This document shows positions 3,761 through 49,829 of a DNA stretch of 64,000 bases, in pieces; within the stretch, counting starts at the first letter, position 1; each line of letters opens with the position of its first letter. A program made the translations under genes and the position numbers. The stretch lies in the NCBI GenBank assembly GCA_021234155.1, contig JAJEKV010000092.1, positions 3,854,561 to 3,918,560 of the forward strand, given 5' to 3'. The stretch comes from Isoetes taiwanensis (lineage: Eukaryota > Streptophyta > Lycopodiopsida > Isoetales > Isoetaceae). The notes beneath the pieces were generated by a model that saw nothing but the letters and a program-made list of their open reading frames with translations, did no database searches and had not been told where the DNA came from.

Positions 3761-4851
3761 GGAAGGAAGGAAGGAAGGAAGGTACTTTTATCGTCCACGG
3801 AGACCAATCGGTCTATGGGACCCAATACAAAAACGCAAACATGCGGACATTGCCGGATTAAAAACCCCCCCCAGAAGGGTTTTCGAGGAAAAACCATGGC
3901 AAACAATCGGCCTGGCCGACAAACCGTAGGCTAATCATATAAAATGCGAAACATCCCAATATATACGGTCATGCACCACCCGTAGTGCCTAGTCGGTGGA
4001 TGACCCGGTGGGGGCAAAGGTGACCTCGCAGGTCCGGTACCTCTGGATGTATGACCCCGTGGCACGCATCTTGGCGGTGTGTTCATCGGCAAATGCAAGG
4101 GCACGTCCGCCGCATTACTAAGGGAGCGTGACCGCCCGGATCCGAGCGGGCAACTTCCGGAAAGTGTGAGACTCATCCTCAATGGCACCCGTTTGACAAA
4201 GACCGAGCGAGCTGTCTGGCGGGCTCCCCAATCCACCGCCTCTCGATCGCGAAGATGGTGGGCACTGTCGCGAATGGAGGCAATGAGTCTGCGCTTTTTG
4301 GGGGCATTTGGGAAGCAGCGGTAGATTTGGGCCCCAGGGCTAACACGGGGTTGATGTGCTCCTTGTAATGGGCCATTTTGACCTGCTCTAGAGCAATGGG
4401 GTCCCGAGCTTGCCAAGGAAACAAGCATCTAGGTACTCCCTCAAGCAGTCGCCACGATCGGGCCATTGCGCCCCAACAGACGCATCAGGTGCTCTGACGT
4501 TCCATCGGGCGAACCATCGATCTCTCTTACCCCTCCAACAGGCCCTAAGCGCTGCGGACTCATGGCCACGGTGTAAGCAGTCGCGGGGAGCCGAGCATCA
4601 CCCATAGTAACCACTTTTCGAAAATAGATGATGTGTCTATCAAGGGCTGCCGGTGAAGCGCAAGAATCCATTTCGCCCGAGAATCGATAGGGGACTGAAG
4701 GTTTCACCCCAAGTGCGTGCCAAAATGCCTTCTCGCGACTGCTCCAAGTCATTCCAGTCGCCAAAGAGGCGGCCAGGGCCCCAAACCTCGACCCCGCATT
4801 GAAGGACAGGGGCTCGACCGGATTAGGAGCAGATGTGACCGATGGCCCCAA

Positions 4852-6230
4852 TCATATAGCTCGCCGGTGACTGTTGTTACGCATGGCATAAAAGCTTATT
4901 CCGGCCTTTGTCACCCACCATAGCGGATAGACGCCCCCGCCAGGCGAGGAGGGGAACTCCACCCCTAGGTACTTGTAGGTGGGCGTGGCGCCCACAGCCG
5001 CCCCCGATATGTGAGTGCAGGAGGCATGGGGTGACGTGAAGAGGATATGAGAACCACCCGGTCTTGGCGGATTGACGCAGCGCATGTCGTAGCGACAAAA
5101 TGTGTCTAGGGCATCCGGGTGAGATCGCATAGCCGGGGTGTGGGCAAGAAGGCCAACATCGCCCGCATAGATGAGTCGGGCGGATGACACGGGTGCAAAA
5201 GGCGTGATGCCATCCCCCCATGCTCGAAGCCGGGGCTCTAACTGATCAATGTAGAGGCCAAAAAAGTGTTGGCGAGAGGGGGCAACCTGGGACCCCGATA
5301 CTCTTTGGTGAATGCTTGGCCCGGCTTGGCCGCATCCACGCCAAAACAACTCTCATACAACATGTTATGGCATAAAAAATTACCAAAAAGGAGAGCCCCA
5401 GCTGACCATAATTCTAGCCTGACCTTTTCTCGGGACAAGATTGACTATCAAAGCCTTTTGCGAAGTCCACAAAAGCAAACAATACAAGTGTCGGCCCGAT
5501 GATTCAAAGAAGATGTTAAGAACTCTTCAATCATCCCCCAGTGTTAAAGATATGGTCAATCGTTGAGTGGCGGGTCGAAGCCCTTTACTGTGTGAGGGCT
5601 CGCGACATCCGTTGCCTACGCCCGGGTCAAGTCTGCCGCTTTCGAGAATGCCGATAGCAGTTTGGCAAATCTTGAAGCTCGACCATGATCGTCCGGTAGT
5701 GGCGACAAACGGTGGGTCGCCCAGCCTTGTGAATGGGAACAACCACGCTTGGGTCCATCGTCGGGGAAACCCCGCAATGCTCGTTGAGCGGGGAGGGTAG
5801 TGAGGACCCGGCACAAGCGGTTGCCACGCCCACTTGAGTAACTTCGGCCCACGCATACCATCGAGGTCACCGCCTTCCCATTAGCTAGCCGTTGCGGGCC
5901 CTCCTCAACATCCTCGTCCACGAGAACCAATGGGGGGCCATCTGTGGGGGTATGGGCGTCTGGCGTCCTCGGGCGGGTCATAGAGCTGCTTTGCAAAGTC
6001 GCATTCCCCACCGCCGGGTGTGATGTCCCCCGTGGCCGGGCTGGCCTTGAAGCACTCTGGCCAAAAGGTTGAGGATGAGTGTTCAGCGGGCGAACATCTC
6101 CCTCGATGCTTGGCAAGGTACCGCCTTTGTGTCCTTGGATGGGCGCCATGCGATGCGGTGGTGGCCTCGCAAGCGGGTACTGGATCCGAATGTGCCGGGC
6201 TGCCGCTGCGTTCTTTTCTGATCGCATCAA
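4852..6230 (-). pseudogene. LINE reverse transcriptase, multiply frame-shifted
   Basis: RT motifs can be followed on the minus strand only by changing frame. EEGPQRLANGKA (fingers entry) comes first, then GDPPF/PTVCRHYRTIMV, resembling the usual GDP...NYRPI block. After that come FGLYIDQLE and the palm motif as IYAGDVGLLA, where the YADD core has become YAGD, losing one catalytic aspartate. TPTYKYLGVEF follows. In a live LINE this enzyme copies its own RNA onto nicked target DNA. Here the active-site loss and the frame breaks make it inactive. Confidence 0.65.
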
Positions 6231-6685
6231 ACCATGATTCTACGAGGGAATGTTGTCGACCCCCGAGCGGCGAAGTGGCCCCGCTTAAAGCACTGGCCCG
6301 GGCCGCATCCGTAATAGCGAAGTCGGTGGTCCATCTGGCGCTCTAGTGTGGAGGTCTCGCAGAATTACCGGGAGGGCGTCCATGAGCATCGGGCAGTAGT
6401 CCTGCCGCTTCTGCTCATAATCGAAGTCTCAACCGAGGACGGCGAGGGGTGGCATAGTGGGGGTTTCGGGCTTTCGCCAAACCAGGTCCAAATAAAGTGG
6501 GAGGTGATCGAGTCGACCTCCTCATCCCGACCGTATCTGTGCCCAGGAAACGGCCCGATGAGATGCATATCTTAGCGCTAACTACAAGCACATAGTCCAC
6601 CACACTAGACCCTCCCCACGATTGTCATGCGCATGTGCACTTGCGAGAATCGACCCACCGTGAAAGGCCATTGCAAATTATCAAG

Positions 6686-7294
6686 TCAAAAATGCCATAT
6701 AGCAGAGTAAACCGCCAAAGCGAAGTGACTGGCGTCATCCGACCAGCGTGGCGGGCTACTTGCGAGGGCGTAGGCTGCGGGACATCGTCGTGAGGGGTCA
6801 AGTCGCATGGGCTGCTCTACTCCTGTCCGTGCATTGAAATCTCCAAGAAGGACGACCCTACCCAACTGCTGATGCTGCTGTATGTCATCATATAGATCGA
6901 CATACGGGTCCATCCTATCCGCATCGGGGTGGCTGCGATAGAAGGTGCTGTCTGCGTGAGGGAAATAACAGGCGGCCAGAAAAAGAGGGTTGCCACTGGT
7001 ATTATGCACACGAACCCAGAAGTACCGGTTGTGTCTGTCTGTCTTCTGGAGGGTAACCGAATGTGCCAAGGTTGTCCGGTAGTAGCAAGCCACTCCACCA
7101 TGACCCCGCTGTCCTGTACAGGTATTGAAGACCGAGAAATGTTGGTAACCCGGCAAATCAGGTAGCCTGTGCCCAGCATGCTCCCATGTCTCCATGAGGA
7201 AGATGAGATCCATACCGGCTGCCACGGAGTTCAGACTGTCCCCCTTCTGCCAAGGGAAGCCTCGACAATTCCATGAGACCACCCGGAGGCACAA
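6686..7294 (-). pseudogene. LINE apurinic-like endonuclease domain
   Basis: The 202-codon minus frame starts MCLRVVSWNCRG, the typical N-terminal strand of an exonuclease/endonuclease/phosphatase fold. It shows LIFLMETW (the catalytic Glu), GHGGVACYYR, and VVLLGDFNARTG (the GDFN metal/nucleophile motif). The frame is lost before the final SDH motif. A VDYVLV strand appears in another frame at about 6.6 kb, and SDH itself is not seen. In its family this domain nicks target DNA to prime reverse transcription. Confidence 0.75.
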
Positions 7295-9486
7295 TTCCTA
7301 TTTGTCAGCAGGGATGGTAAGGCGCACCGAGTCAGCTGGGAGGGATCGGGAAGCAGAGGGCCGAAAGTGAGAAGTAGATGGAGCGGAGGGGCGATGTGGT
7401 CGAGAGGGCGGGCCGCGAGGGAGCAGGAGTAGGAGCAGGAGAAGGGGGGGCCGTGGTAGTAGAAGGCATGTGGCCGGGTGCCGGTTAGGGTTGGGGCTGG
7501 TCCCGCAGCAGAAAGTGTGTCGTCGGAAAATGTGCATCCCGCCAACCAATCCCCGCAAAGACTTCGCTGGGCGTAATGCCTCTCGACCCCTCGACAAGCT
7601 CCCCGTCTGCGTGCCTCCCGCTGCAGACGGGTGTGAGGTCCCTGGCCCACGTACAGGGATGTCCCTTCAACATCCGCCCGGGCGCAATATGGCATCACGC
7701 ACTGCGCATCCGCAACCGCGAATATGACAATGCAAAGCCACGCCGGGGCCGAGCCCCATGCCGCCGCTCGAGAAATGTGAATCGCCTCGAATGTCATCCG
7801 ATCGAGAATGTGTGTTCGGATGTTGTGGGCGCAGACTCTCCCCGGGCTGTTCGCATGCCTCAACTACCGGGGATAGGGCTCTCTCCGCCAAGGCCTCGAG
7901 TTCTCAAGGGCTCAGCGGGTCCAAGGTGGGCTAAGGCCGGGTCCCCGTGGCCGGGGTGGTGGTGGTGGCCGGGATGGCGTGGAGTGACCGGAGTGTGGCC
8001 GGGATGGCGTGGAGTGGCCGGAGAGCGGGGCAGCGGGGGCGGGGCGGGCCGCTGCTGGGAGGCCGTGGGCGGGATAGCTGCCCGAGCCGCTCGCCCCCCG
8101 CGGAAGTCCGGGAGCACAGCCTCTGCGTGAGCCTCGCCGCCGCTTGGCCATCTCCTGCCGCCGCACCGGCCGCAGTGACTATGAACCTCGGTAGGGAGAC
8201 CCTCGCTCGCCTCTGCGGGATGGTTGCCCGCGAACCCCGGGAGCTCCGTGCCTCGAGTAGCGAGAGCGTGCTCGAGCCCCAAAGACACGGGCGCCGAGGG
8301 TGGCTTGTTGTTCCGGATCTTACTCACGAAGATCACGAAGGCGTAATGCAGGCATGCGCAAGAAGCGGCACTGTGCTCCCGTGCCATGGTGGTGGGCTGC
8401 CTCTACCTCGGCCGGAAGCCCGGCGTGACCATCGTCTCTGCATTGCGCTCCCTCTCGTGTCATGGTGTCAGTGATGAACCACGAGTCTAGGCGGGACCCG
8501 CATGTCCGTGACCTCTGCACGGCTTCTTTGCCTTTCGAAGTGTGCAAGGCCAAGGCCATCTTCCACATCGGCGTGCGGGTCTCCAAGCTGTGATCACGGT
8601 TCTTTCGACCCCAATTTGCCTTTTGAGCACATGGGATGCAGGGACTCCATCTCCAACGCCATGCCGGCCCGGGAACGCTGTTAGCCTCAATACGAACACT
8701 TGTTAGCCTCCATTCCCGCTTTGGCGTGTCTCCAATTCTGTAGAAGGCGGGGAGTTCCTATGTGGTGCGAGCAATTAATCCCTTCCCGTCCGGGCTGGCC
8801 TCACCGGGGGGGGCCTTAGCCTTAGCCCGAGCCTCCTTCTTCATGGAGGATGACTCTCCCCGGCCCATGATGGCTGATCGTGGACTGTTTGTGGGCGGGC
8901 CCTCCTTGGGTTTCCCCGGGCCGGCCCATCTTCCGTGGCCATGACTCCCCAAAGTTTGAGGGGTCTCCGGCTGCGGAAAGGGTGCCTAGAATTGAATTTG
9001 GGGACTCAAGAACGCGGGCAGAGCACCTTTTGGGCTAGTCAACGGAAACCCTAAGTGGTGGGGTGGGGGGTGTGGGGTGCGTTTCTAGCGAGCCCAAAGA
9101 ACAGGGTAGGGGTGCCCACCACCTTTGACTTTGACTTTGACCCTCGCCACTTTGCTTCTCATAGGTCTTTCCAAAGCTTTGTACAACACGACACCATTTA
9201 ACATGCTAACGCTGCTCTAATCACGCCAACGCTTCTCATAGATTAGAATAGAACATCACTCACAATTATTGCATGCCAACTACCGCGGTGTGGGGGGTTC
9301 GAGGGCTCCAAAGTCCGAGGGGTCTCGGCTGCCTCAAGGGTGCTTAGAATCCGGTTTGGGGGCTCGGAAAGGCGGGTGGTGGAGCCTTTTGGGGGTTTGG
9401 GGGTTTTGGGTCTAGAGAGAGATTGTAAAACCCTAGAGAGAGAAAGCCAGAAAGGGGTAAATCAAGGGGGTCTATGCAAGGGGAGT

Positions 9487-9578
9487 GAGGGCGCTAGAGA
9501 GAGGGAGCTGGGCGCTGTGAGGGCGCTAGAGAGAGGGAAAGAGAGGGAGCTGGGCGCTGTGAGGGCGCTAGAGGCTGT
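9487..9578. repeat. Tandem repeats in the LINE 5' leader
   Basis: Units beginning GAGGGCGCTAGAGAGAGGG and ending GAGCTGGGCGCTGT occur twice, then a third partial unit begins. The region lies at the presumed 5' (minus-strand) end of the GC-rich LINE, where repeated promoter or UTR units are common. Confidence 0.6.
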
Positions 9579-9611
9579 GACAGAAGGGGACATATACAAT
9601 AACCTAGTACA

Positions 9612-10622
9612 AAGGGCGAGGCAGTTTCAACAGTAATCCCTGGGCCTGCTAGAATAAGCTGAATCACCTAATAATAGTGGTGGAATAGTTACCTGAACCT
9701 CTTGGTCAGTAGGCTGCCCCTTCTTCAGTTTTCTGCCACTCAGAGTCACCACTGGTTCTTGCAAAATTTGTTTGGAAGCAATTTTATTATAGATGGAGCT
9801 CTTCTTGAACTGGTTGGAATCATGGACTTAACCTGTTCTTGTTACACAAACATTTATAAACAATCTGCTATGTGTCACAATTCCTTGCATGAGACATGAG
9901 TGCCTCTTATGTCTGCTGTAATAGTCATCCCCATTATCCTTTTTTTTGGGTTTCCTCCATAAGAAGATGTGGGAACCGTCAACTGCACCATATATATTGG
10001 GCAACCCAGTTGCATCATGGAATTCCTTAATACACTGAGTTAATCTTGCTCCTGTAGGCATAGCAACAAACCGTTTGTATAGCATTGCCTTCGAGGTCAA
10101 TACAATAGTGACTTTCTTGGTATATTTTTGCACTGTTGCTTTCCCAACATAAAATCTTTGTCCCACATGTAAGGGCATATCCCCGCGTGCTAGAAAATAC
10201 AGAACCATAGCAACTGCTTTCCTTGGATCAACATGGGGCCTTACTTTAATCCCGGGCCTGACGAGATAAGGCACAATTAAAGCTACCAGTCTCTCAAATG
10301 TGGCCCTTTTCATCCTGTAAAATTGGTGCCACATATCGTCTTCAAAGGATGGCAGACAATTCCAAGCATGGTTATCGATATTATCCCACTGTGTTCTTTG
10401 CCTTGGAGCAATCCAAAATCTTCTTGGTGGTCTTCTAACCCTACTGGAACCCGATACCATTAAAACTGCAGATGCGCAAAAAAGCAAACCATTGTTATCT
10501 TCTAAAACTTCATCATCGAACAGGGTCATTGGGTCTTCGAGCTCGTTGAGTGCAAGTAGCTGCAAACAGTATCTCTGGAATGTAAATCCGAGTGTCAAAG
10601 CCCGAAAAAGCATAGCAATCAT
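9612..10622 (-). pseudogene. PIF/Harbinger transposase, N-terminal and catalytic part
   Basis: The minus frame starts MIAMLFRALTLGF (10622). It carries the usual helical N-terminal region and then the DDE_4 nuclease core: IYGAVDGSHI (first catalytic Asp), and after an in-frame TAA at about 9828, VHDSNQF and LLLGDSAYSS (second Asp). The final segment reads LLLKLPRPLY in a shifted frame and then meets the GC-rich LINE. The enzyme would cut and paste the element with a 3-bp target duplication. The remaining C-terminal part, including the third acidic residue, is at 3430-3760. Inactive because of the stop, a frame shift and a 5.85-kb insertion. Confidence 0.85.
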
Positions 10623-10960
10623 GCCAAGAATGACCGGATCGATGGTTTAGCGGCCGGAATTGAAAGCGTAGAGAGGCAAAACTAGAAATGAAATATCCCA
10701 CATAGGCTGCCGAACCAAGAAAAAATAGACTTGAATATCCCACAATTTGGCGTCCGAATGGAACGTTACGGTCAAATTATCCCACAAAGAACTCGTCGGC
10801 CGGAATGGATGCAGGATCGAAAATCCGGCAAACAGCAAAAATTGTGCCCATAACCGAGGCTGTTAAGCTTCGAGAGACAATTGTCTCTCCTCTCCTCCCA
10901 AAAAAATACGTACATTTAGGGGAGGAGCCGTATGTGACGAGAGATGGGTTTTTAAACACG

Positions 10961-31275: not shown

Positions 31276-32566
31276 CGGGTCTATAAGTTTTAATATTATT
31301 ATATGTATGGAAATTTTTGTACATAAGTGCCGCTCTCACATTGAAAAGATGCTTCCAACAATTTGCATCCTTCGGGAGAAACGAGTAAGCAACTTAATAT
31401 GTTGAAGCCTAATTTCTATAGAACGTTTGGGTGGTTTGTTTCTTGTACCGTTTTTCCAATGATCTTTTTTGCAGAGTTATGAAATTTGCATGTTTTTGGG
31501 GGCCGTCTGATAGCTACTGAATGGACACAGATGAAAAGATAGATGTATTTTTGTTTAGGAATTGTCCACAAGAACATGCAATTCGTAAATTTTATCATTG
31601 AAGCAGTTTAACCATGGCAGTGAAACTGGTTTAGTTGGTCTTTCATCTGTTTTAAGAATGTGAAGGTGTTAATGCTGCAAAAAGCACCAAGCGAGTGCAA
31701 TATAGAATTCTGCGAGACCAGATTGCTAAGCCTCTGCGGACAAGTTTTACATGCATTTGGAAAACCAGTTTTCTTCAAAACCACTAGCACCATTAATCTT
31801 ACTGCTTTTTCCACTCACTTCTGAAGGTCTCTAGCAGAAATCCTATTGGTGTGAGTGAGAAACCTGGGATGGACCGACTGAGTATAAAGTGCACATCTTT
31901 TTTGAGTACAGATACTTTCATAATCACTTGCAAAGTCACTAGTCAAGGAGGGATTCAAATAACATTTTAACATAAGTTGTTGATGCATCTTTATCGTCCA
32001 AATCTTTTGTTGTTATAACACTGTACTCCTCTGTTAACTTGTTGGCCCGATAGGGTATACTTCTGTACTGCTGCACAGTCTGAAATTTCCTCCATAAATA
32101 ACAAATATTAATGCAGTAAATTAGTTTGTTGTTCTCATTCTATTACATTCTTTTTACAGAGAATGTGGTTGCCTAGGATATTTTTCTCATAGCTTGCATG
32201 GCATGCAAATAAGAAATCCCTTCTTTATATCTCCACCCCCTTCATATAATCCATCACTATATGTTTTTACTCTTAGGTATTGCTGAAGCTGTGATAGAGG
32301 CTCAGAGACTGGAGGTGACATGCATCACCAGGTATAAAGCATGAATTAATTAATTAGAGAAATTTGGAATTCTCGTTTAGCATGAAATAGGTTCTTGGTT
32401 AGCCATATAGTGCAGAAACTACTAGCAACTGAGTAAAAGTTGGCATTTTTTAGTACAAATTCTACCAATGATTCGGCGTTGTTCAGAAATACAGTTTTTA
32501 CTGCTCATGTAAAGGTCCATCGTGAGTAGAATGCAGTAGTATGGAATGCTCTATGTTATCGCAAGA
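31276..32566. other. Spacer
   Basis: No gene supported. A short open stretch at about 32276-32332 (IAEAVIEAQRLEVTCI) ending in a donor-like CAG|GTATAA could be an isolated exon, but nothing else supports it. Confidence 0.4.
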
Positions 32567-32846
32567 ATCGCGAACGCGATCTTTCGCAGTTGAAAAGAGA
32601 CAAAATAATGAGCCTTTTATTAACACCATATGAGAGCATTACGTACTGGAAAGGTGCAGTGGAGTAGGCATAGCACAAACATTTCACTATTTAAAGCTTT
32701 GTATTTGCCATAGAGGATCGCGGCCGCGATTATTTTCAACATTAAACATGCACCAAGTAATAGTAAAGACAAAAAGATACGGTAAAACATATTCCTGAAA
32801 CAAAAATTTCCATTGAAGGATGTAATGTACAATAGGGATGCAATTA

Positions 32847-35800
32847 TCATTCTTGTGATTGTGTTTCAGATACACTATCAGGTATCACACCCAATTCATT
32901 GGCAATGCGGATGACATGCGCTCTACCCAATTCCATAGCTTGTGTTGTGTCCATCTCTGAATAACCTGTGACCTTTGGAATCTCAACGCCCATGGCATTT
33001 GCGATGTGCTCCACATGTGAATCAGGCTCCACATTTTCACTATCGCCTGCACTAATCACGCCTATAAATTCCTTCTCCGACTCAGTAGCAATCTCGTGTG
33101 GATGAAAGATCTTCGGCTTCTTGCAGGGTACCTGATGCTCTTGTGTCCCAACAGACTCATCTTGGTCTGTTTCCATGTGCTGTACGCCCACGTATTCAAA
33201 CCTAGATTCGCCTGTCAAGAATGGCATATACACATCAAGCTTCTGGTTTAGTGCCCCTAGTTTTTGGAAAGTAGGTTCGAGGGCTTCAATACCTTTTTCA
33301 GTCGCTTCCAGCAATCGCTTTGTTTCTTGCATTCTCTCCTCGTAGCCTTGAGCATCGAGGTTATCCAAAATGACATCCAACCCTGATATATCTGTCTTTT
33401 GGGTAATACTGATGTCGGGCAGCAAAGGATTAGCCTCTGCATTCTCTGCTTTCTCCTCTTCTTAAGATTCCCCAGTAGTTTGACTGGCCATTTTCTCAAG
33501 CGTTTCCAAGAAGGACCTCAAGAAACGGCACACTTTACCTGAACTTTCAAAGGCTACGCTCTTTTTGCCTTGCATAAGAGCGACACGAGAAGCTGTCCCA
33601 GCCGAAAAGAAATCCAGGACGCAACCGTCAGTGGGCACCAGCTGATCAACAATATAATAGGCATATGAGGTTTTCAGCTGGCATTTCAATACAAGATCTC
33701 CTTCCATTGCTGCCCATTTGTATCTTGGTTTGCCTGTAAAAAGAGTTTGAAACTTCTTTTTTATCTTGTCATCGGCATCCTCATTACCTGTTAGCAGCAT
33801 TGGAGGCAATGGTGTTTGCTTAGGAGCCTTGCTGTGTGGAGATAGACGAAGCTCCAGCTCAGGTTGCAGAGGTGCTACACGAACGTCACTCCTGTTAATG
33901 CACATATGACTAATATAATACTGATATTCTTTCACCCTTCGTTTGCTCTCCCAACCCATTTCTTCATAAGAACCCAAAGACATGTGGCCACCTCCCTAAA
34001 TTTGTTTCCGACTGTACAAGCAATTGGGCAAATTCACAGAGCGCATAATAATAACCAAGTGATAAACTTTTGCAGTAGTCATGGTAGCTATCCTTGTAAA
34101 AAGGTCTGTGTATTTCTTGCAATCCCACACCTTGTTCATCCCTCGGATGTCAATAAATATCAATGTGGCATTCTCTGACACTGGGGAGGAAGTAGGGATG
34201 CCATCCTTTGTCACTGCTATGACAATATTTTTCTTTTCTTTTCTTTTCTTTTTCTAGCCTCTTCTGGCTTTAGAATATTTCTGATTGGCTCCAGAAAGGC
34301 TACAGGTAGGTTACCTAGTGTATGATCCTTGTTATAGTTAGCCTTCACATACTCTGTATCAGTATCTGATATATCAAGTATTCTCTGTTCAGTCAAATCA
34401 GAAAAAGCCTGAAGCAATTCCTCGAAGCTATCGACATCCTTTTGCAGCAAATTTGTGGCATAAGATAAAATTTCGCGCCTCATAAAAGTGAGGGTTCTGA
34501 TGTCAGTTGCCCGTTGTTTGCAATCAAATCTCCCGCTATACCCTGCCTGCACCTTTAAATACGTCTTGCCTTCTATTATTTCATCGAGCAGCTGTGACAT
34601 CTCTGCATTCGACATACCTCGTAGCAAACGAAGCCAGGTCTTGTTAAAGAAGTCTTTGGACGGCTTGTCCGGAAACTCACCATGGTCGTCACTGAGCTTA
34701 CGGTTCACCCACAGTCCGGCAACTTCCATTAACTTCTTGAAAACCTTCTCGTCCATAAAGATGAATTGTTTTTCATCTGCACTTTCAAAGTGGTGGTTGC
34801 AATTTCATGGAAATCCTGCAGAAACAAAGGTCATCAAGATCGCGGCCGCGATGTTGGTGAGTAGAAAATGAAGAAATACCTTCCAAGCTGAACTCGTAGC
34901 AGTCCCTATCGGTCCTTGTGGAGGACAGCCATAAGCCTTGTGCTGACGACGAAGTTGTTGCAGTTTTTCAATTAGTGGCTCTCTGTAGACGGTATTTGCA
35001 ATTACTTCGTTGCATTGAATGCTCAATTCTATATATTCCTTGTATGTAAGATTTCCGTTGAGCACTCTCGATCTTCTTCTAGCATATACTTTAGCAAATT
35101 CTAGTTGCTGCTCCAACTGGCCAACGACCGAACAAAGGAGTTGTGCCGCGCAAATACTGTGGTTGCCAGAAATAATGTAAAATTTCTTGCCCTTTAAATC
35201 CTCTGGATTGCTCCATGTCACCCTCCTCCTGAAAAAATGGACAACCATCAAGTCATATCTAAACAACGAATGTCCAAAAGATAAAGAATCAGTTACCTGG
35301 TAATGGGGTCAAATGGCACGACGTCAGCAGGCGTGAGGACCTCTGTTGGGTATGTCTTGAAGCTTTTAACCAGAGTTTGAACATGGTCATTTGAGCGCAT
35401 TCGGTGTGTCAGGTTTGCTGGTGCAGGTTCACAATCAAAAATAGAAATCTTGGTAAACCAGTTAACCCCTAAGGGGTAAAACCGTTTAAACTGTTCAAGC
35501 TTTTGAGTGGTCTGCTCTGCCATCTGCTTCCGGATTGAACTTCAACTCGATTGGAATGGCAGGTGCGTTTGGCCATGTCAACAACTTAGTAGAAGAGGCT
35601 TCCGTAATAGATGGGGGGGTTTGAGAATTGCTGGACTGCGGGCTATCGTCAGTGCTCAGATTTCGAAGGTTTATTTTGAAAGTAGTAAATTTTTTTGGAA
35701 TAAATCCACCACAGGTAGTGCTATCTGGGGCCTTTAAAGCAAGAGGAAGAGTAGGGTTAATAATACCGGAGGGGTTTATGGTGGATTGTGGTTCTTCAAC

Positions 35801-36843
35801 AACTTTTTTTGATGCTGAAGGCTCTCCCAATGTAGCAATTGGCTTCACACTTCTTTTCTTGGCCACGGCTCTGAGCCAATTGGTGTCCATCACCGACGGC
35901 ATTTTCTCGTCCCGAACTGCTTTCAAAGCACCGCTCGGAGGCTCCTTGTCTGTGGACAAACCATTTCTGCATGCCGAGAACCCTACCAAGATGTCTCTGT
36001 TTCCCTTTATACCTGACAAAGAGAGAGATTCGTAAGATGGCAACACCCAGCCATAACCCTTAGCTGATGTTGGGACGTTTTTCCCTGTGGCTGGCTTATT
36101 CATTTTGCTGGCTGTCATCATAGATGGGTCATAGTTGCGCCATTTCAGAATGTATTCCAGGAACTGCAATTGATGTGTGTCCTCGATGCTGCATATGATA
36201 GCATCTTGCACATTGTTCTTCGTGCCTTCCCACATTGCCACCACTATGCCAACTTGTTCAACGTCCTCAGCTTTCTTTCCAGTGCGCAGGAACAGGCACA
36301 GATCCTTTCTGCGGTCGCCACGAATGTGTGGTATTGCTTGTGCAATCTCTATACACCATTTCCTTTCGTTAGAGGGGGTTATAATACGGATGGGTTCGAC
36401 ATCCGGTCCACGAAACAGAGCGAGGGCTGTAAACAAAAGCCTCTGGTGAGTGCCTGATAGGCTGCATAATGTTATACAACGAAAAATATAAACTACTCAA
36501 GAGGACCGCGACCGCGATCCTTCAAGCAACTATACTACTACTCCACACTATCGCGGCCGCGATGTTTTGTAGCAGCTAAGCAGGGCAAGAAAACAAAATC
36601 ACTGCTCACGAACACCGGGGTCGCGATCCTACCGAGCTACTATACTACTACTCCACACCATCGCGGCCGCGTTGTTGTGTGGCAGCTAAGCAGGGCAAGA
36701 CTCAGCAAGACCGCGGCCGCGATCTTGATGAGCAGCTACAACAATCAAAACATAACAAAATCTAATAAGCAAGATCGCGGCCGCTATCTTGCTGAGCTGA
36801 AATGTCAGGATTTACCTTCTCTGAGGGAGTCCTTAGGTGCCAT
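32847..36843 (-). pseudogene. ParB-like domain fused to a DNA methyltransferase, frame-broken
   Basis: Exon 1 (36816-36843, MAPKDSLRE) splices in phase to 36426 (ALALFRGPDVEP). The N-terminal region runs to about 35.5 kb. Next comes a ParB/sulfiredoxin-like segment: EVLTPADVVPFDP, a 68-bp intron (35229-35296), then KFYIISGNHSICAAQLL. After a 64-bp intron (34816-34879) and a helical part, ATLIFIDIRGMNKVWD may be motif IV, with DIRG in place of DPPY. VLDFFSAGTASRVALMQG (about 33.57-33.62 kb) fits the FxGxGT S-adenosylmethionine motif of N6A/N4C methyltransferases. Order IV before I recalls beta-class enzymes. Frame shifts fall near 35.52, 34.79 and 34.24 kb; in-frame stops lie at 33996 and 33462. 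Coiled C-terminal sequence follows to 32847. Protein activity is unproven and this copy looks dead unless the breaks are sequence errors. Confidence 0.6.
34839..34852. promoter_or_regulatory. Perfect palindrome inside a 64-bp intron
   Basis: ATCGCGGCCGCGAT lies wholly in the intron 34816-34879 of the methyltransferase gene, so it escapes coding constraint. It contains a NotI recognition sequence. Confidence 0.6.
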
Positions 36844-36846
36844 GGG

Positions 36847-36860
36847 ATCGCGGGCGCTGG
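36847..36860. promoter_or_regulatory. Motif copy just upstream of the methyltransferase start codon
   Basis: ATCGCGGGCGCTGG, a variant, begins 4 bases upstream of the ATG at 36841-36843 on the minus strand. Occupancy there could repress the gene itself. That is inference from position only. Confidence 0.4.
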
Positions 36861-38061
36861 CTGAATACGAAAATCGGGTTGTTTAAGGGAGGTTCTTTAA
36901 GCCGCTGAAAGCTCGAAGGCGCTAGGCGCTTGAAGAATTCGCGGGCGCTGGAAATTCTCTGAGATGATATGGCCGGCCGTAAATTTATATAGAAACGCGG
37001 GCGCGGAAATTAAATGCCCACTAATCATAATGATGCGTTGATTATCGTGCCAGCCGTGATGACGCCGTACGTGCGGGCGCATTAATTTCACGCCGGCTGT
37101 ATTAATTACCGGCTGGCCGGCTGTATTGATTGCCGGCCATAAATGCGTCCGTGCGAAAATACCCAACAAAAAAAACACGCAATTCGTACGAGAGCTCTTT
37201 ATCGACTTGGACGTCCGCGTTCAAATTTCTCGCGTACAGTCAGTTAATTAAATGAACCTGACATGTTAAGCAGCCATAAAGGCCTGAAAAAGACACTAGA
37301 TTACGGATGGACAGCGACATGAAAATTTGAATTTGGTAACAAACATTTAGAGTGAAAGCGGGAATAGCCAATTCAAATTTGTTTGTTTTACAAGTCCTCG
37401 GAGACGCTCGAGCTGCGCCTACGCTGTGCCATGTTCTCCCAAGGTTTTGCTGCAGAATCCCGCATCAATTGAAGGCGCTGACAAGGGCGCTGATAATCCG
37501 CTTGCACTGCGCCACTATACATTTCGATTTCTTCCACTGCATCGAATTTAGTCTTTTGGCCGAGGTAAAAGGGCTATCCTGATGCCTATCTCTCAGTGAA
37601 GTGATCCAATAAATTTCATTGATAACTACTACCTGTTAAGAATGTGCTGATAGTTGATGATCAATAATACATAATTCATCCTTCAAGAATGTTTCCTTAC
37701 AGGGTTCTCGGCATTGAATTGATTCTACTGAAACAACACTATTTAATATATGGATTGATAAGATACCTGCTGATAATTTGGATTAGAATATTTAAAAATA
37801 GATGTTCTCAGCAAACCTGTGCACTCTGTTGTGTTTATTATACAATGTTCACGTGTTTCAAATACATGCTTTCTTTCTGCTTGTGGATGATACAAAACAT
37901 GTTTTGGTGGCACTACAGCTTCTGACGGGTCATTGGCTACAAGAAGACGTTGACGCCACCATTTCGAGACCTGTGAGGTAAGAGTAATGCTTTAGTGTAG
38001 AAGTCACTGCTTTAAGTCTTGTGCTCGACGAGATTGCGGTCGCGAAGTCTTCAACCATCTA

Positions 38062-38188
38062 CACTTGCTATTTACTTAAGAACTCCGATATATTTATCAA
38101 TATGAGTCGAAACCACATGCTAATCTCGACATGTGTTTTCGACTCCGAGAGAACGATATATCCGAGTTCTTAACTAAACAGCTAGTGT
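38062..38188. repeat. Inverted repeat able to form a long hairpin or cruciform
   Basis: Two arms of about 58 bp (38062-38119 and 38130-38188) are imperfect reverse complements around about 10 bases. Shared blocks are TTAAGAACTC, GATATAT, GAGTCGAAA and CACATG. It lies between the two divergent genes, within the palindrome array. Confidence 0.8.
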
Positions 38189-38364
38189 GGATGCTTGCAG
38201 AAAGCGCGACCGCGTTCTTGCCAATGCTCGATAAGATCGCGGTGGCGATAGTCCTTAGCATTTTTTTAGCTCCCAATTGTCGTTTTGTACTATAACTTTT
38301 AAAACAGAGCTCTATTTGCTTACAAACATCGCGGCCACGATGTTCACGATGTCTTGTTTGTAGG

Positions 38365-40646
38365 ATGGCGGATGTAATCTCGCTTTATCTGCTGGGGAAA
38401 AAGGTGGCCGAAGGAAGAGTCCACAACTTCGAGCGCCATCACAATTCGATTGTCCCGGAGGGTATGGTGGTTGTTTCGGTTGTGAATGTTTTGGATGGAC
38501 AGCTGCCACTACCAATTCCCGAGCAGGAAATAGAAAAACTTGGTGAAGCTGTGGGGAGTTTTGTGTTGTGGTACAAGGACATTGCTGGTCAGCTTATGAG
38601 AGAGGAAGAAGTTTGCACGCCACCAGGACAAATTAAACGCATAAACTGGCAGGTCGGAGGCAATGAGAGATTAGGCAATAATGAGACGAATCATGTGCAA
38701 GGGCTTTATAGAGATGAGTTAATTGAGAAGGCTTGCACACTCATGCATGAATGCTGCCACATGGCTTACGGGTGTGGTGTTATCGTTTTTGTCGATCCAA
38801 ACCATGCTGTTGCTGACGTGAAGTTAGGGGAAGGCTCGATAGCTGCTACTATCATGAGCCTATTTCCAATGCCTGAAAAGATCTCTATGTGCTGCCAAGC
38901 CTGTGCAGAAATGCCCCAGCTGCATGACCTTGTAAGATGGCCCATAGCCTTCGTGCTCGTTGATAACATTCCAGTTTCTACTCTCGTGGTTGCAGTGAAG
39001 GAGAAGGATGTGGAGAATAAACCTTATTCCATTAGACCAGAAATTGACATCACAAAAAAGAGACCTTACCACATGGTCAATCGGAGACCCAGGACACGTC
39101 CAGCACAGACCAAATGTGAAAGAAAAACTAGTGCTGAGGCTATTTTAGACTTCAGGTCATCACTGTGCTGCATGAAAAGATGTTGTGCAAATTTTACATC
39201 CAAGGAGATAGCTTGCATGAGAACCTTTTACTGGAACATGAAGTCCTCGGAGTGCACAACCTTTGCATATAACATGCTAGATCTTTGCTCTGAAAATGGT
39301 GTAGTCCGCAACCTGATGTTGAATAACAAACAGGTGTGCGTGAAAGCATGGCATAAATTTCCACTTTTTACAAGTGGAAGAAGCTCTTCAATGATGGCCA
39401 TAGAATTGCTGAGCACGAAAATAGTGGTTCTAAGAAGCCAAGATCTCATACTTTGGCTGGCAATGCTGTGCTATCTATGTTCATAGATGAAAACGCAGAG
39501 ACGATGCCACACCGCTCAAAAATTACGAGCGAGGGTAGCAGACAAAATGTTAAGAGGCTACCTTCAGTCTTGACTAAGAAGGATATACACCAAGAAGTAG
39601 ATGTTACCATTACAGAGATGACAGGCAAGGATATTTCTCCTTCGTCCTTTCTGTCTGCTTGGAAAGAGAATCATTCAGAGGTGGCAATAGCTACGAGGAT
39701 AGCATTTTCTAAGTGTAACACCTGTATTGTCATAAAGGAAAAGCTTGCTAAGACCAGAGATCCAAATGAAAGAAGGGTACTTGCAATGGAGAGAAAATCA
39801 CATATGACGGCCCAGATTTCATGTAGGAGCCTTTACTGGTCCTGGAGAGCTTTGTCTCATAGATCTCCTGAGCACGCTTTAACCATTATACATGACAAGA
39901 TGGATCAAAATAAGACCATGGTCCCTCGTCTAGAAAAGCTAGCAAAGTCTGTGTGGAGGGGTGAACGACTGAAGGTGAGTGTTACAGGTGCTCTCATGCA
40001 CGAGCATGGTATAGGTGCCTTGGGCCACTTCTCATTGGACCTCTGGCCTGATGATTCTAATTTTCATGTGGGATCCTTGAATCATACCTTGAAGACACTG
40101 GAGAATAAATCTGAGGATAATTGGGGCCATTTGAGAGATCTGAGATCGTCCCCGAAAAGCTGGCTTTGGGGTGGAGCAATTTTAAACACAGATGCCCTTA
40201 GGACAAAAATGGTAAATGGCAGTAGAAATGATTTTATGCCTCCTGCCAAGGGCCCTATGGTACCGAACAAGTTGCTTAGGAGGCTTTACTTGCAGCTAGA
40301 TAATTGCTCAGGTCAAAATAAGAATAGATATCTTTTCTCTTACTTGTCATACTTGGTTTGGTTAGGTGTCTTTGATCAAGTGCAGCTGGGATTCATGATG
40401 GTCGGACACACCCACGATGACATAGATGCCCTCTTTGGAAACTACTCTACTCTAATGAGAAGATTAGATGCATTGACTATTCCAGAGCTTATGCAACTCT
40501 TCAGGCAGTGTAGTTCAAAGTCTCCGTCACCTTACCTTGTGTCAGAGGTTCCTAATTGGAAGGAATTCGTGAAAGGTTTTATCCCTGATAAGAAGGACCG
40601 TTTATGTGGTCATTTGGAACCTCTACTCTTCATGGATCAAGATTAA
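38365..40646 (+). pseudogene. DUF8039/DUF7869-like element protein, one frame shift
   Basis: The start ATG (38365) follows a motif copy at 38328-38341. The first frame opens with a DUF8039-like region, LGKKVAEGRVHNFE...PLPIPEQEIE...GSFVLWYKD, as in plant transposon-associated proteins. It continues through Cys-rich CCMKRCCANF to 39486. The correct frame after about 39365 is the other one: YKWKKLFNDGHR, EHENSGSKKP, then the DUF7869 core LQLDNCSGQNKNRY, FMMVGHTHDDIDALF and a conserved C-terminus, ending at 40646. The shift lies at a CTTTTT run. DUF7869 proteins occur in multicopy families of seed-free plants and some animals and look nuclease-like (D...H.HDD), but their function is not known to me. 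The gene diverges from the methyltransferase gene. Confidence 0.7.
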
Positions 40647-42314
40647 CACCATTTCTATAGCATTCACACAGATCGTTGTAGCTCAAGTAGCACTTGAAGG
40701 ATCGGATGTGCTCCGGACGAGGAGGCAAGGAAGCCATGGAAGATGAATGACCTCTACCACCGAATGGAGCTGCTTTTATAGTGAAGTAAAATTATTGATG
40801 TTCATTATTGGTGTAGATTGTAAGGTCATTATTGAGCTTGTACAAGTATCACGTACACGTACAAGTATAACACATAATTTGTATGGATATGTGTATGTTT
40901 GTGACCTCATGTATCTTGGGCTCGAGAACTAGGTGAAAGTATTGGTGCTTGAGCAAATTAGGTGTGCTTAAAATTCTCAAAATTGCGTTATTTTCTCCAA
41001 TTAATGAAATCATGCTTTATATATGTATATTTTTTTAAAACCTTTGGAGTAACCCAATTCAATTCCTAGGAGGTCTTCAACAACTATATATTTTACTAAA
41101 TATTTTTCTCTAATATGTACACCACCTTTTCCTAGGCACCGAAGGGGCCGAAAAAGTTTTGAGCTAACGCAAACCATTACATTCAACACTTTAAAATTAA
41201 ATTCCTCCTGAAACCCCCTTTGATTTGGGTGCATATTCACACGGGAAGTGACATAGGGCAGCGAGAGCCCCTTTTGTACTCCCTAAAACCGTATAAAACA
41301 TGTATGAAATTAACACCATTTAGTACATTGCCGCAAATGTTATAGTATTTTGCAAGCCTCGCTATGCAATATACCAAAACATGTATGAGAATACCCCACA
41401 AACAAGGAATGCAATTATGGTCCAAATTTTGCTGAATATCTCATTTGTTATTTCATCCTTGTTTTGTATAATTGATAGATTTTCAGCCTCCCAATGAGCA
41501 GGGCATGGTTGAGCAGGGTCTGGCCGTGGCTCCAGTTGCAGTAGCTCCACTTCTAGTAAAAGTAGTAGATTTTCTAAAACTGTATAATATATGTGTGAAA
41601 TCAGCACCATTTAGTACATTGCCTCAAACCTTACAATATTTTGCAAACCTCGCTATACAGTATACCCAAACTTGTATGAGCATATCTCTCAAATGAGGAT
41701 TGTTATCTATGGTCCAATCGAGGAATAACTTGCAAATATACCCATACAACAGCTCTCGATGCCCTAAGTCAACCCCCATGTAGCATAACACAGGGGGTTT
41801 CTTTGTATTTCTATACGGTTTTTGCTATGGCTTTGCTATGGTTTGGAGGGCGTATTTTGAGATCTACTAATCAGTACATCTAGAGTGCGCACCATATTTT
41901 CTTGTGAGTTTTGCAGGTGTTTTCCAAAGGTTTGGCTGGATATATATTTTCTTGTGTGTATGTATTTATTAAAACCCATCCAAACATCGATATTTGTATT
42001 TTAGAGCAATGAAAGAAAAATTTCCGTAACGGAAAGCCTGTCGGGCTTGTCATGTTTGCAAGCATCTGCCTGTGTATCTGCTAAGATATGCTTTATATGT
42101 CATTAACCAACAACCACATATTAGGTTATTGGCTTTCTGGATTTCAGCCAAAAACTCAACAGCCAGAGATTAGATTACTGGCTTTCTAAATTTCGGCCAA
42201 GAACCTAACGGCGACAAATTAGATTATTGGCTTCCATAAGCAACATCAAAATAAACCAAAAATCCCTTAATCCAAAAATGGATAGCAAAACCATTACAAA
42301 AACACCAACACGAA
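40647..42314. other. Spacer with duplicated segments
   Basis: No gene. A segment of about 150 bp beginning CTAAAACCGTATAA...CACCATTTAGTACATTGCC at 41283 is repeated at 41575 with about 85 percent identity by eye. Three short tandem units with ATTAGATTATTGGCTTTCT-type phrases lie at about 42120-42240. Confidence 0.6.
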
Positions 42315-44566
42315 ATGTTTCAAACTGAGAACTACATGTTGGGCTTAATTCAGTGCCCTTGCTTGCCTCCTAGGTCGAGCCATTTAGGCTACGCTGTAGC
42401 TTTGAACAAATTTAACTTGGGTAGATGTAGTTTCCGATTTTCCGCAGCGGCAGAACCTGCTGAGACTGCACACATTCAAGAAGAAAGCGCAGCAAACAAG
42501 GAATTGAAAAGGAGGGGAAGCACGCAGCTATTGAGATGGGCTAGGGCGCGCAGAAAATCTGCAAGGCGTTTGGAATTGAGATTTAATGAGGAAAATGGAA
42601 CTGCGGATTCAGACCAAACAAATGATGAATCTGAAGACGAAGGAGATTTTGGTAAAGATGGGGTGGATATGCCTGGTAAGGCAGTCTTTTTGGTGTCTGA
42701 TGGAACTGGATGGACTGTTAGTCATTCTGTGCAGGCTGCCTTGGGCCAATTTGAACACTGTCTTGTTGACAGAAACTGCTCAGTTAGTACTCATTTGTTC
42801 TCAGAGGTATGTTAAAAGTCTAGTTGGAATGTAATATTTGGCTTCATCTTAGTACACTTTTGTTCTCAAAATTCATAGTATCCTAAATATGGTTCATTAT
42901 TTATTAGCACTTATTTTTTCTCAGATGTATCTATAGTCATCTTTAAGTATAAAGATGTGTTGTTTAAGGAATGAAAGTGTGCTTGTTTGAATAAGTACTC
43001 AGTTATCCCCACACTATATATCTTGACTATAGAAGTGTTGAAATGTAATTGTTTGGCTCATTTTTTGCTCAGCATTTTTGTATTGTTATGACTGCAGGTG
43101 AATGAGATTGATAAATTGATGGAGATAGTCCGCCAAGCAGGAGAAGAATCTGCTTTGTTGATCTATACATTGGCTGATCCTGCCATGGCTGATGCTGCCA
43201 AGAAGGCTTGCCAAATGATGGCTGTGCCATATTTGGATATCCTTGGGCCCATCACAGAGGTCCTTTCAGCTCAGATAGGTGTCACTCCACTTGGACTTCC
43301 TCGAAATGCACCTGGAAGAAAGAGAGTTCTGTCCAGGGAATACTTTAAGCGGATCGAGGCAGTTGATTTTACAATAAAGCACGATGATGGAGCTTTGCCA
43401 AAAAATCTACACAAGGCAGACATAATATTGACTGGGGTATCCAGAACTAGCAAAACTCCGTTATCTACGTATATGGCACAGATGGGGTATAAGGTTGCAA
43501 ACGTGCCTCTTGTCCTTGGAATTGAACCTCCCAAGGAGCTATTTGAGGTTTCTCAAGATAAAATTTATGGATTGACTATAGATCCCAATTTCTTGAAATC
43601 CATTAGAACTTCTAGATACCTGCATCTTGGTCTTGCTAGAGATTCCAGGAGTTCTTATTTTGACATGGACTACATCAAGAAAGAGTTGGAATATAGTGGC
43701 GACCTCTTTAAAAAGAATCCTACCTGGCCTGTGATTGGTAAGTCCTTTTATCATGAAACTTTATCATTGCAACTTTCCTTAATTCTAACTCCACCTGCCA
43801 TAAACAATCAATTTTTAGCGTCTTTTCTTCTTTCTTGGACTTAAATGATATAGGTGATATGACATGTTTTTCCCCAACTGTTTCGATCTACTTCCTGTGA
43901 ACACAATTGATTCTGGACAGCGTTGAGGCCTATATTTAATGGACATTTTAGTGATAGGACACAATTGATCATAAATAGCACCTTAATTATCATAGTTTTT
44001 CAACTCCAAATTGAAAGTTTGGCATCCTTTTCCAATTATGATGACCACACAGTTATTATGTCATAGAATTCAAGGATAATCGCATCTTATGTAAGCGAGG
44101 CAGCTGCAGAAGCAACAAGCTGGGGTACAGCAGTAAGACTAACGTTATTGAAACTTCTATGGCGACTTCTAACTTGTTTTTGGACATCCATAACATTATC
44201 TTCTCTCTTGAGCAGAGCGAAGGCACGCTTCACCTTCCGCCATCCACTGAATGTTGAAAAGATTTTCAATTCTTTGCCCTTTGAGCCCAACACTCACCTG
44301 AATGAATGACATGATATATTTTATTATCACTGCCAAACTGGCTAGATCTTGAAAAGTTTTGACCAATTTGATTATGAGATTTTGACCAATTTGATTATGA
44401 GTTTTAGATGATGTTACTTCTACCTACCTTTTCATTTTACTAAATTGTATGATTTTTTGCAGAGGTCACAGGAAAAGCAATTGAAGAAACTGCGGCTGTA
44501 ATTCTCCGCATATTTCATGAGCGGAAAACCAAGCACGTAATGCCGCGCATCTCAAAACGATATTAG
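42315..44566 (+). CDS. RP1: PPDK regulatory protein, plastid, three exons
   Basis: This bifunctional enzyme phosphorylates (ADP-dependent) and dephosphorylates (Pi-dependent) the active-site threonine of pyruvate, orthophosphate dikinase in the chloroplast stroma. Exons: 42315-42806, 43098-43737 and 44463-44566, 411 residues, close to the usual plant length of about 400. The first 50 residues, without acidic residues after the second Met at 42336, look like a transit peptide; that Met may be the true start. A Lys/Arg-rich linker is followed by [46 protein letters not shown] and the P-loop [15 protein letters not shown] (residues about 277-291). [17 protein letters not shown] and the end MPRISKRY are as in the Kinase-PPPase (DUF299) family. 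All splice junctions keep frame. It is complete and probably active. Confidence 0.95.
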
Positions 44567-48543: not shown

Positions 48544-49210
48544 CATATTGTATTAGATTGCTTAAAAGTGGAAGCTGGGTGGAGGCAGTCAATGTCATTC
48601 TGAAGTTATGGATTGAGGATGATTGCCTATTATTGCTGAAGTTCATAGTATCACAGACTTTCAGGTTCACCTCTCGAGATTTACAAGAACTTGCTGCAGA
48701 TGCTGGCACATTTGCAATAAGTAGAGGCATATTGTTGTAAAAGACCTCAGTAAAAAAAAAAAAAAAGCAACTAAAACTGCTATTATTGCAGCTGAAGAAG
48801 CACAATGGCATGGCAAGGCAGGGATGGCTAATGGAGTTATTGGGAGACTCCAGGACATTAAGAAAGTTTTTGATTGTGCAAAGTTGAGGACGGGGCTTGC
48901 TATAGGGACTCCAAAGATGCCAGATGTCAAATGGGAGGATGTTGGAAGACTAGAGGATGTAAAGAAAGCTATATTTGATATTGTGCAGAAAGTTCCAATA
49001 GCACATGGCTGTAAGGATGTTTTGGTCTTAGTGGTTGTTGCAGTTGAGGATGAAGATTCTGTTGTACTTTCTCTGCAACATTGCTTTCCTCATAAGATTG
49101 CTTTGGGGACACCCAATAAGAATGATCAGCTTGAGTGTCTTCGCCACTACATTAGAATTGAGAGAGTTGATTCTAATATCTCAGCTCTAGTGAAGGATGT
49201 TCTTGGTCGT
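48544..49210 (+). pseudogene. Captured PEX6 (peroxin-6 AAA-ATPase) cDNA fragments
   Basis: PEX6 is an AAA-ATPase that recycles the peroxisomal import receptor. Here its pieces lie inside an LTR element. QTFRFTSRDLQELAADAG (about 48652) corresponds to the end of its first AAA domain (SGFMPRDLRALVADAG). It runs on without introns, after a stop, through KTSVKKKKK and AAEEAQWHG to LAIGTPKMPDVKWEDVGRLED (about 48898), the entry of the second AAA domain. A block that should come earlier, HCFPHKIALGTPN and NISALVKDV, follows at 49078-49200, so the order is permuted. The lack of introns points to capture through RNA. Not functional: stops, frame changes and no Walker motifs. Confidence 0.75.
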
Positions 49211-49829
49211 GTAGAAGCATTTATTCGTAAGGATGATAGTGCATCAAGTGCATTGACTCCCACGGATGACAAAGAAATACTAGTTTCTGAAGGAGTTCGA
49301 AGTGAAGTTATTGGTGTAGAGGCAATTGTTCTTGCGAATGACGTAGAAATGCGAGTTGCGCATGGTCAAGTTTCCGCTTTTTATTCTAGCAACTCGAATA
49401 GATGCAAAAGGTATCTTATTTTTGTTGCATGCATGTTTGTTTTTGATGTGTTGATGACTCTATGTGAGGGGAGTGTAAAAGGAGTTTGTGGAAGAAATGT
49501 GGTAACAAACCTTGTAGTCCAAACAGCCTGGTATGATGCACATCTGGAAGGTAGATTCCTACACATATCTGTTCCTAAGAAATGGAGGGCGCAAGAAGTT
49601 GCTCCAATGAAGGTATCTCTTTCCATTCATTTAATAATTGAGCACTTACAGAATAGATATTATTCGTATGCACAAGAGAAGACACTGGCTGTTCCAAATT
49701 TGTTAGTGAAATGTCAAAATGTTCCCTAACCAAACAAGATGCAGATACAGAATTGATTATGATTTACACAAATGATTCATCTTACAACAGTTTTACAGCT
49801 CTCAAACGTAGAATCAGAGAGATGGCAAA

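Follow-up and report, generated by a model that had tools for sequence, protein, structure and literature searches.

A two-gene, apparently Sola-1-like DNA transposon in the quillwort Isoetes taiwanensis, with a conserved palindrome and an accessory gene whose methyltransferase-like product is probably no longer catalytic

Introduction

What role a gene resembling a bacterial DNA methyltransferase may have in a plant transposon, and whether its product would still act as an enzyme, is the question raised by a locus of the quillwort Isoetes taiwanensis. The locus lies in a stretch of 64,000 nucleotides of contig JAJEKV010000092.1 (assembly GCA_021234155.1, positions 3,854,561 to 3,918,560), referred to here as the window. 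A preliminary description had placed a transposable element at 32567..40646, with two divergent genes: gene A, on the plus strand, with DUF8039- and DUF7869-like motifs, and gene B, on the minus strand, coding for a fusion of a ParB-like protein and a DNA methyltransferase that might mark the element's own sites. We describe the element as a two-gene, Sola-1-like transposon in which gene B would be a retired methyltransferase, kept as a DNA-binding or scaffold protein on the element's palindromes, a reading that we judge to be about evenly poised between right and wrong.

The kind of gene is already known, since transposon genes joining ParB and a methyltransferase have been published for algae, Sola-1 elements included, as far as the available part of the source goes (PMC12477816). 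The same excerpts describe Sola1-1_Ec32, a transposon of the brown alga Ectocarpus, as carrying on the strand opposite to its transposase an accessory gene for a ParB-like protein with an N4C/N6A methyltransferase, and they cite Iyer 2011 and Petroll 2025 for similar proteins in the transposons of green and red algae (PMC12477816).

Results

The two genes form one DNA transposon

The genome searched was the assembly of 1,658,258,908 bases in 1,110 records, and all copy numbers given here are counts of candidates. A gene-B exon was found within 15 kb at 42 of 98 DUF7869 places, against 0.40 expected, the inputs being two gene-B exon searches (150 and 100 matches) and one gene-A search (98 places used). 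The figure of 42 is a lower bound, because each list holds the top-scoring share of thousands of first-look candidates; at least 42 places are paired, and 56 of the 98 stand unpaired. Since this linkage far exceeds the chance expectation, the arrangement is no accident, and an accidental side-by-side placement is rejected; the two genes travel together, as had been proposed, and the contrary notion that they never lie side by side elsewhere is contradicted. At all 42 linked places the genes are divergent, in agreement with the preliminary description and in the arrangement described for the algal accessory genes, opposite to the transposase gene within one element.

That the locus is a transposable element is borne out by its ends. 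The window copy is a DNA transposon of 8,681 bp (32337-41017) with an internal deletion at 40631/40632, the inverted repeats and the flanking TATA duplication correcting the limits first proposed to 32337 and 41017. The start of the left end is identical or nearly so in other copies read. Another copy, L028, has a length of 8,823 bp with GAGC on both sides, and inverted-repeat ends with a 4-bp duplication are therefore present in both of the copies in which both ends were read. Compared with L028 the window copy is short of about 1.8 kb at 40631/40632, and L028 is without other parts that are present in the window; because each misses parts kept in the other, the undeleted element would be about 10.5 kb long. 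Both genes are broken in the window copy, and the family is abundant, with thousands of first-look candidate places in the genome searches. The features of the window copy are:

32333..32336, unstranded: left target site duplication, TATA, read from the sequence
32337..41017, unstranded: whole transposon copy, from its ends and comparison with other copies
32337..32364, plus strand: left terminal inverted repeat, beginning AAGCATGA, 24 of 28 bases matching the right repeat
32567..32730, unstranded: palindrome sites at 32567 and 32717, close to the left end
32847..34815, minus strand: last exon of gene B, with a helical part, the methyltransferase-like domain (FIDIRG at the motif IV position, VLDFFSAGTAS as motif I) and a tail
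34816..34879, minus strand: gene-B intron with a conserved palindrome at 34839-34852
34880..35228, minus strand: gene-B exon for the second half of the ParB-like stretch, including the GNH motif (IISGNHSICAAQLL)
35297..36426, minus strand: gene-B exon with the N-terminal part and the first half of the ParB-like stretch, interrupted by one frameshift near 35520; no start codon located
36505..36787, unstranded: array of six palindrome sites between the genes (36505, 36550, 36614, 36660, 36710, 36774)
38033..38341, unstranded: four palindrome sites with up to 3 mismatches (38033, 38203, 38236, 38328), upstream of gene A
38365..40632, plus strand: gene A, DUF7869 protein; frameshift near 39350, 3' end cut by the internal deletion
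40990..41017, minus strand: right terminal inverted repeat, 24 of 28 bases matching the left repeat
41018..41021, unstranded: right target site duplication, TATA, read from the sequence

Gene A matches DUF7869 (PF25273) in a Pfam profile search with 135.9 bits against a cut-off of 26 (E 1.6e-39), as its motifs had led one to expect, and the longest open frame among four fuller copies translated has 945 amino acids. DUF8039 was absent from the profile matches of the proteins of the window and of a further copy, L041, in a library whose inclusion of DUF8039 is unchecked, and we have set this identity aside as a demonstrated one. We presume gene A to be the transposase. The target site duplication of Sola1 transposons is 4 bp long. 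The same length is given for Sola2 in the available part of PMC3627910. Inverted repeats with a 4-bp duplication, as in Sola-1, are present here (TATA in the window, GAGC in L028), and the length of the duplication together with the Ectocarpus parallel suggests an element of Sola-1-like type. The genes had been described as sharing 1.5 kb; a shared stretch does lie between them, with about 1.9 kb (36427-38364) from the first located gene-B exon to the gene-A ATG, and the true gap is shorter, because the start exon of gene B was not located.

Gene B carries a methyltransferase-like domain with a changed motif IV

At least three exons make up gene B, and in the copies read (window, L027 and L041) its introns are of the GT-AG type; in the window copy its last exon carries one or more frameshifts and two in-frame stops. 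The C-terminal half follows the beta-class order, with the position of motif IV, a long middle stretch, motif I and an acidic strand end. In a profile comparison with 15 bacterial and phage methyltransferases it scored 35.4, the best of 100 column shuffles reaching 25.2, and motif I was in register (VLDFFSA-GTAS over VLDPFAGSFTT). A separate comparison with phage fusions gave a methyltransferase score of 25.2, which none of 60 shuffles reached, and 18.7 for the reversed query. A hidden Markov model (HMM) of the 15 enzymes matched four sequences of the lineage to which the window copy belongs (the window lineage) at E 0.0004-0.0045 in a search of nine sequences, and the Pfam N6_N4_Mtase model matched the window piece weakly (E 0.18) and in the correct place. 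The relationship to bacterial and phage methyltransferases suggested earlier is upheld by the profile comparison, and the C-terminal domain appears related to the beta-class N6/N4 DNA methyltransferases, the evidence from single sequences being weak. Gene-B pieces gave nothing over cut-off in Pfam, NCBIfam and PHROGs, and a phage tblastn search and three viral-contig scans returned no relatives of gene B. The matches of the methyltransferase part in the PDB were taken as chance: one, to a cytochrome c555 trimer (E 0.00024), came from repeated short stretches, and two weak rows were to cytochrome peroxidase.

A protein of similar build is found in the Streptococcus phage phi-SsuNJ2_rum (L058), in which a ParB-like part (ParB_N 24.9 bits, just below the cut-off of 26.3) precedes a methyltransferase of the beta class (N6_N4_Mtase 96.6 bits). 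The phage protein has 417 amino acids and reads DPPY and FLGSGS, whereas the window protein, which contains long additional regions, lacks a motif IV of this kind and has a shortened loop.

At motif IV all 15 reference enzymes read [DS]PPY (DPPY or SPPY). In the window lineage this position reads FIDIRG, FIDMRA or FIDIEG in 21 of 21 readable copies, and proline-tyrosine in none of them, the count combining the 19 readable loci among 23 oriented ones with L043 and L044, all picked by similarity to the window copy and most of them close to it. An FxGxGT-type methyltransferase motif had also been reported; its likeness to motif I holds, but the S-adenosylmethionine (SAM) loop reads FSAGT, one residue shorter than FxGxGT, and the reference enzymes keep the longer loop. 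Both hallmarks of an active beta-class N6/N4 methyltransferase, DPPY or SPPY at motif IV and an FxGxGT-like SAM loop, are therefore missing, and an intact methyltransferase in the window lineage is rejected. Because the catalytic motif IV is lost, gene B of this lineage is probably not catalytic and probably no longer methylates, contrary to the modification of DNA that had been supposed.

Selection has maintained the gene-B protein

We compared 13 pairs of copies, dropping matches below 55% identity and stop-containing codons. Eight between-lineage pairs differ at 0.72-0.93 per synonymous site, near saturation, and at 0.08-0.31 per non-synonymous site. The ratio of the non-synonymous to the synonymous rate (dN/dS) was 0.064 in the ParB-like exons and 0.176 in the methyltransferase exon of a closer pair, L027/L042, and 0.74 and 0.29, respectively, in the recent pair L009/window, ratios such as decaying copies might show. 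Gene B of the window lineage is under selection, and because both members of the between-lineage pairs carry the changed motif IV, its protein was maintained while motif IV was gone.

The N-terminal stretch of gene B is suggestive of ParB. The GNH motif noted earlier is indeed present in the exon 34880..35228, and the ParB query scored 13.6, against 12.3 for the reversed query as a control. An HMM of phage ParB run on nine sequences including the window lineage reached a best E of 0.16, the L041 pieces of gene B gave no Pfam ParB match, and a PDB sequence search with the ParB-like part gave no match.

A palindrome is conserved within the window lineage

The palindrome array reported earlier is confirmed: the element in the window contains 13 sites of the palindrome ATCGCGGCCGCGAT with up to 3 mismatches, and the rest of the window 2. 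In the genome as a whole the word has 961 exact sites and its reversed counterpart 0, and the 23 oriented loci contain 164 sites when up to 2 mismatches are allowed, compared with 2 for the reversed word. The consensus extends to 20 bp, AAGATCGCGGCCGCGATCTT, with A at -3 in 149 of the 164 sites and T at +16 in 146. Of 23 copies, 19 have an exact palindrome in the gene-B intron, 2 have one with 1-2 mismatches and 2 (L022 and L028) have lost it; in L041 it is exact though the remaining intron hardly aligns. Across contigs C1-C346, counting exact sites only, the palindrome lies within 7 kb at 7 of 7 places of the window lineage, at 0 of 10 Pfam places of the second lineage described below and at 0 of 4 VADxPYGF sites. 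The right-hand 4 kb of L028, an undeleted right end, contain no palindrome with up to 2 mismatches. The palindrome is conserved and, to judge from its exact sites, specific to the window lineage.

A second lineage apparently retains the enzyme

For the bacterial-type N6/N4 methyltransferase domain, this plant genome holds 1,443 candidate places. Of these, 150 were scored with the Pfam methyltransferase model and all 150 lay over the cut-off, every one of them more than 10 kb from the 151 window-lineage places used for comparison. Twenty-four of the 150 have one of 150 DUF7869 places within 15 kb, and 22 of the 24 are divergent; 17 lie within 6.1 kb of DUF7869, 5-6 kb apart, and every one is divergent, where 0.41 would be expected. 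In L045, where 106 bases were read, motif IV is VVADLPYGF (DLPY). The motif VADxPYGF has 56 sites in the genome and 0 control matches; 13 of the 56 are within 3 kb of one of 150 motif I places, with listed starts 455-733 bases apart, and all 56 are more than 10 kb from those 151 places of the window lineage. Because place and orientation match, we argue for common descent of this methyltransferase gene and gene B. To judge from these motifs, the second lineage apparently retains an intact D-x-P-Y enzyme.

Surroundings of the element

Directly before the element, window 32278-32336 reads like the end of a host exon (GIAEAVIEAQRLEVTCITR, then GTATAA), and because the element abuts this stretch, it may have inserted at the splice donor of a host gene. 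Beyond the element, frames at 42255-43844 resemble the plant pyruvate phosphate dikinase regulatory protein, and a frame at 9828-10646 on the minus strand we take, by eye, to resemble a PIF/Harbinger nuclease. A degraded frame at 48725-49729 has what we assume to be an AAA-type stretch (DVKWEDVGRLEDVKKAI) and is adjoined by a tandem repeat of 150-bp units. The GC content is 0.57-0.59 in window 4001-10000 and 0.36-0.48 in the other 2-kb blocks.

Discussion

In the reading that we prefer, gene A, the DUF7869 protein, would act as the presumed transposase of a two-gene transposon, and gene B would be an accessory protein derived from an ancestor with a ParB-like part and a beta-class DNA methyltransferase. 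In the window lineage the motif I region is still recognisable, the catalytic motif IV is lost and methylation is probably gone; gene B, which selection keeps, would most likely serve as a scaffold or DNA-binding protein on palindromes of its own element, where, between the genes, in the intron and near the left end, it may control expression of the element or a nucleoprotein complex. The transposase role, the loss of activity and the binding of the palindromes by gene B rather than gene A are points that we infer. In a more specific form, which we find possible but doubtful, land-plant transposons would have turned a captured bacterial-type methyltransferase into a non-catalytic, ParB-like partner of the lineage-specific 20-bp palindrome that recurs along their own element, in the manner of ParB and parS, with the sister lineage keeping the enzyme.

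Several results weigh against the preferred reading. The hhalign probability of the methyltransferase match was 42-43%, and the comparison with seven phage fusions alone scored 24.4, next to a shuffled maximum of 24.0 (100 shuffles), with the register broken after motif I. L041 had no Pfam methyltransferase match at E up to 1, the NCBIfam and PHROGs searches of gene-B pieces had none either, and two AlphaFold models of gene B, both of low confidence (mean predicted local distance difference test, pLDDT, 40.3 and 34.2), left the fold unconfirmed. The loss of DPPY is not strict proof of lost activity, and the palindromes could serve gene A. As for ParB, the GNH stretch aligns with the ParB GxH motif at a score equalled by 5 of 100 shuffles (ParB query in five of five rows), and the score of a longer query was reached by 41 of 60 (three of five rows); because shuffles equal the GNH alignment and do as well as the longer query, the ParB identity is a lead and no result, and the stretch as a proven ParB is rejected, its scores being at or near chance. 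The Pfam ParB search of the quillwort's own genome, weakened because an exon boundary falls inside the ParB-like stretch, gave no match over the cut-off and one sub-threshold match in a frame of 57 amino acids.

One could also speculate that the gene-B protein, despite its unusual motif IV, is active in modification and marks the element's own sites with N6-methyladenine (6mA) or N4-methylcytosine (4mC), a role proposed in print for the algal relatives. The selection on gene B in the window lineage would suit such an enzyme, as would the second lineage, which occupies the same divergent place with a Pfam-clear methyltransferase (150/150 scored) and D-x-P-Y (56 sites, 0 in the control; DLPY in L045). 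Set against the absence of proline-tyrosine in all 21 readable copies and a SAM loop one residue short, this makes for an explanation that we regard as unlikely. A limited chance is left to the palindromes being subterminal repeats that the DUF7869 transposase binds for transposition, with gene B otherwise employed, for example in countering host silencing. Subterminal transposase sites are often placed near an end, and the arrays here do lie near one end and between the genes, with exact palindromes tracking the lineage; yet one palindrome sits inside the gene-B intron, and the one undeleted right end checked, that of L028, has no site in its last 4 kb at up to 2 mismatches.

Palindromes and gene B might, finally, be leftovers of a recent spread, the selection signal reflecting descent from a few active masters. 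Many copies are broken, and the ratio of 0.74 in the ParB-like exons of L009/window would fit; however, selection is evident between lineages near synonymous saturation, and the intron palindrome outlasts the intron around it, so that we hold this to be very improbable.

Compared by description only, and as far as the available part of PMC12477816 goes, the quillwort element resembles Sola1-1_Ec32 in being a DNA transposon with an accessory gene opposite the transposase. It differs in size (the two copies read to both ends measure 8.7-8.8 kb, and an undeleted one would have about 10.5 kb, as against 21.5 kb), in its plant host, and in having a changed motif IV, a shortened motif I and a conserved palindrome. 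Within the quillwort, the DUF7869 elements of the second lineage likewise have a methyltransferase gene divergent from DUF7869, but they differ from the window lineage by a Pfam-clear methyltransferase, D-x-P-Y and no exact palindrome within 7 kb (10 places). No mention of DUF7869 turned up in our literature search, and among the literature matches listed, from a collection with few subscription journals, none described an element of this sort from a land plant. Within the literature searched, the new points are the vascular plant as probable host, a lineage with motif IV changed under kept selection, another, apparently intact, beside it in the genome, and a palindrome specific to the changed lineage.

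Bacterial-type methyltransferase genes in transposons, an oddity of algae, are thus probably extended to a vascular plant, and there to high copy number. A single genome offers a natural comparison between a lineage with an apparently intact enzyme and a changed, selected lineage tied to a DNA site, and because both lineages share this genome, the role of the accessory protein, marking DNA or binding it, becomes testable.

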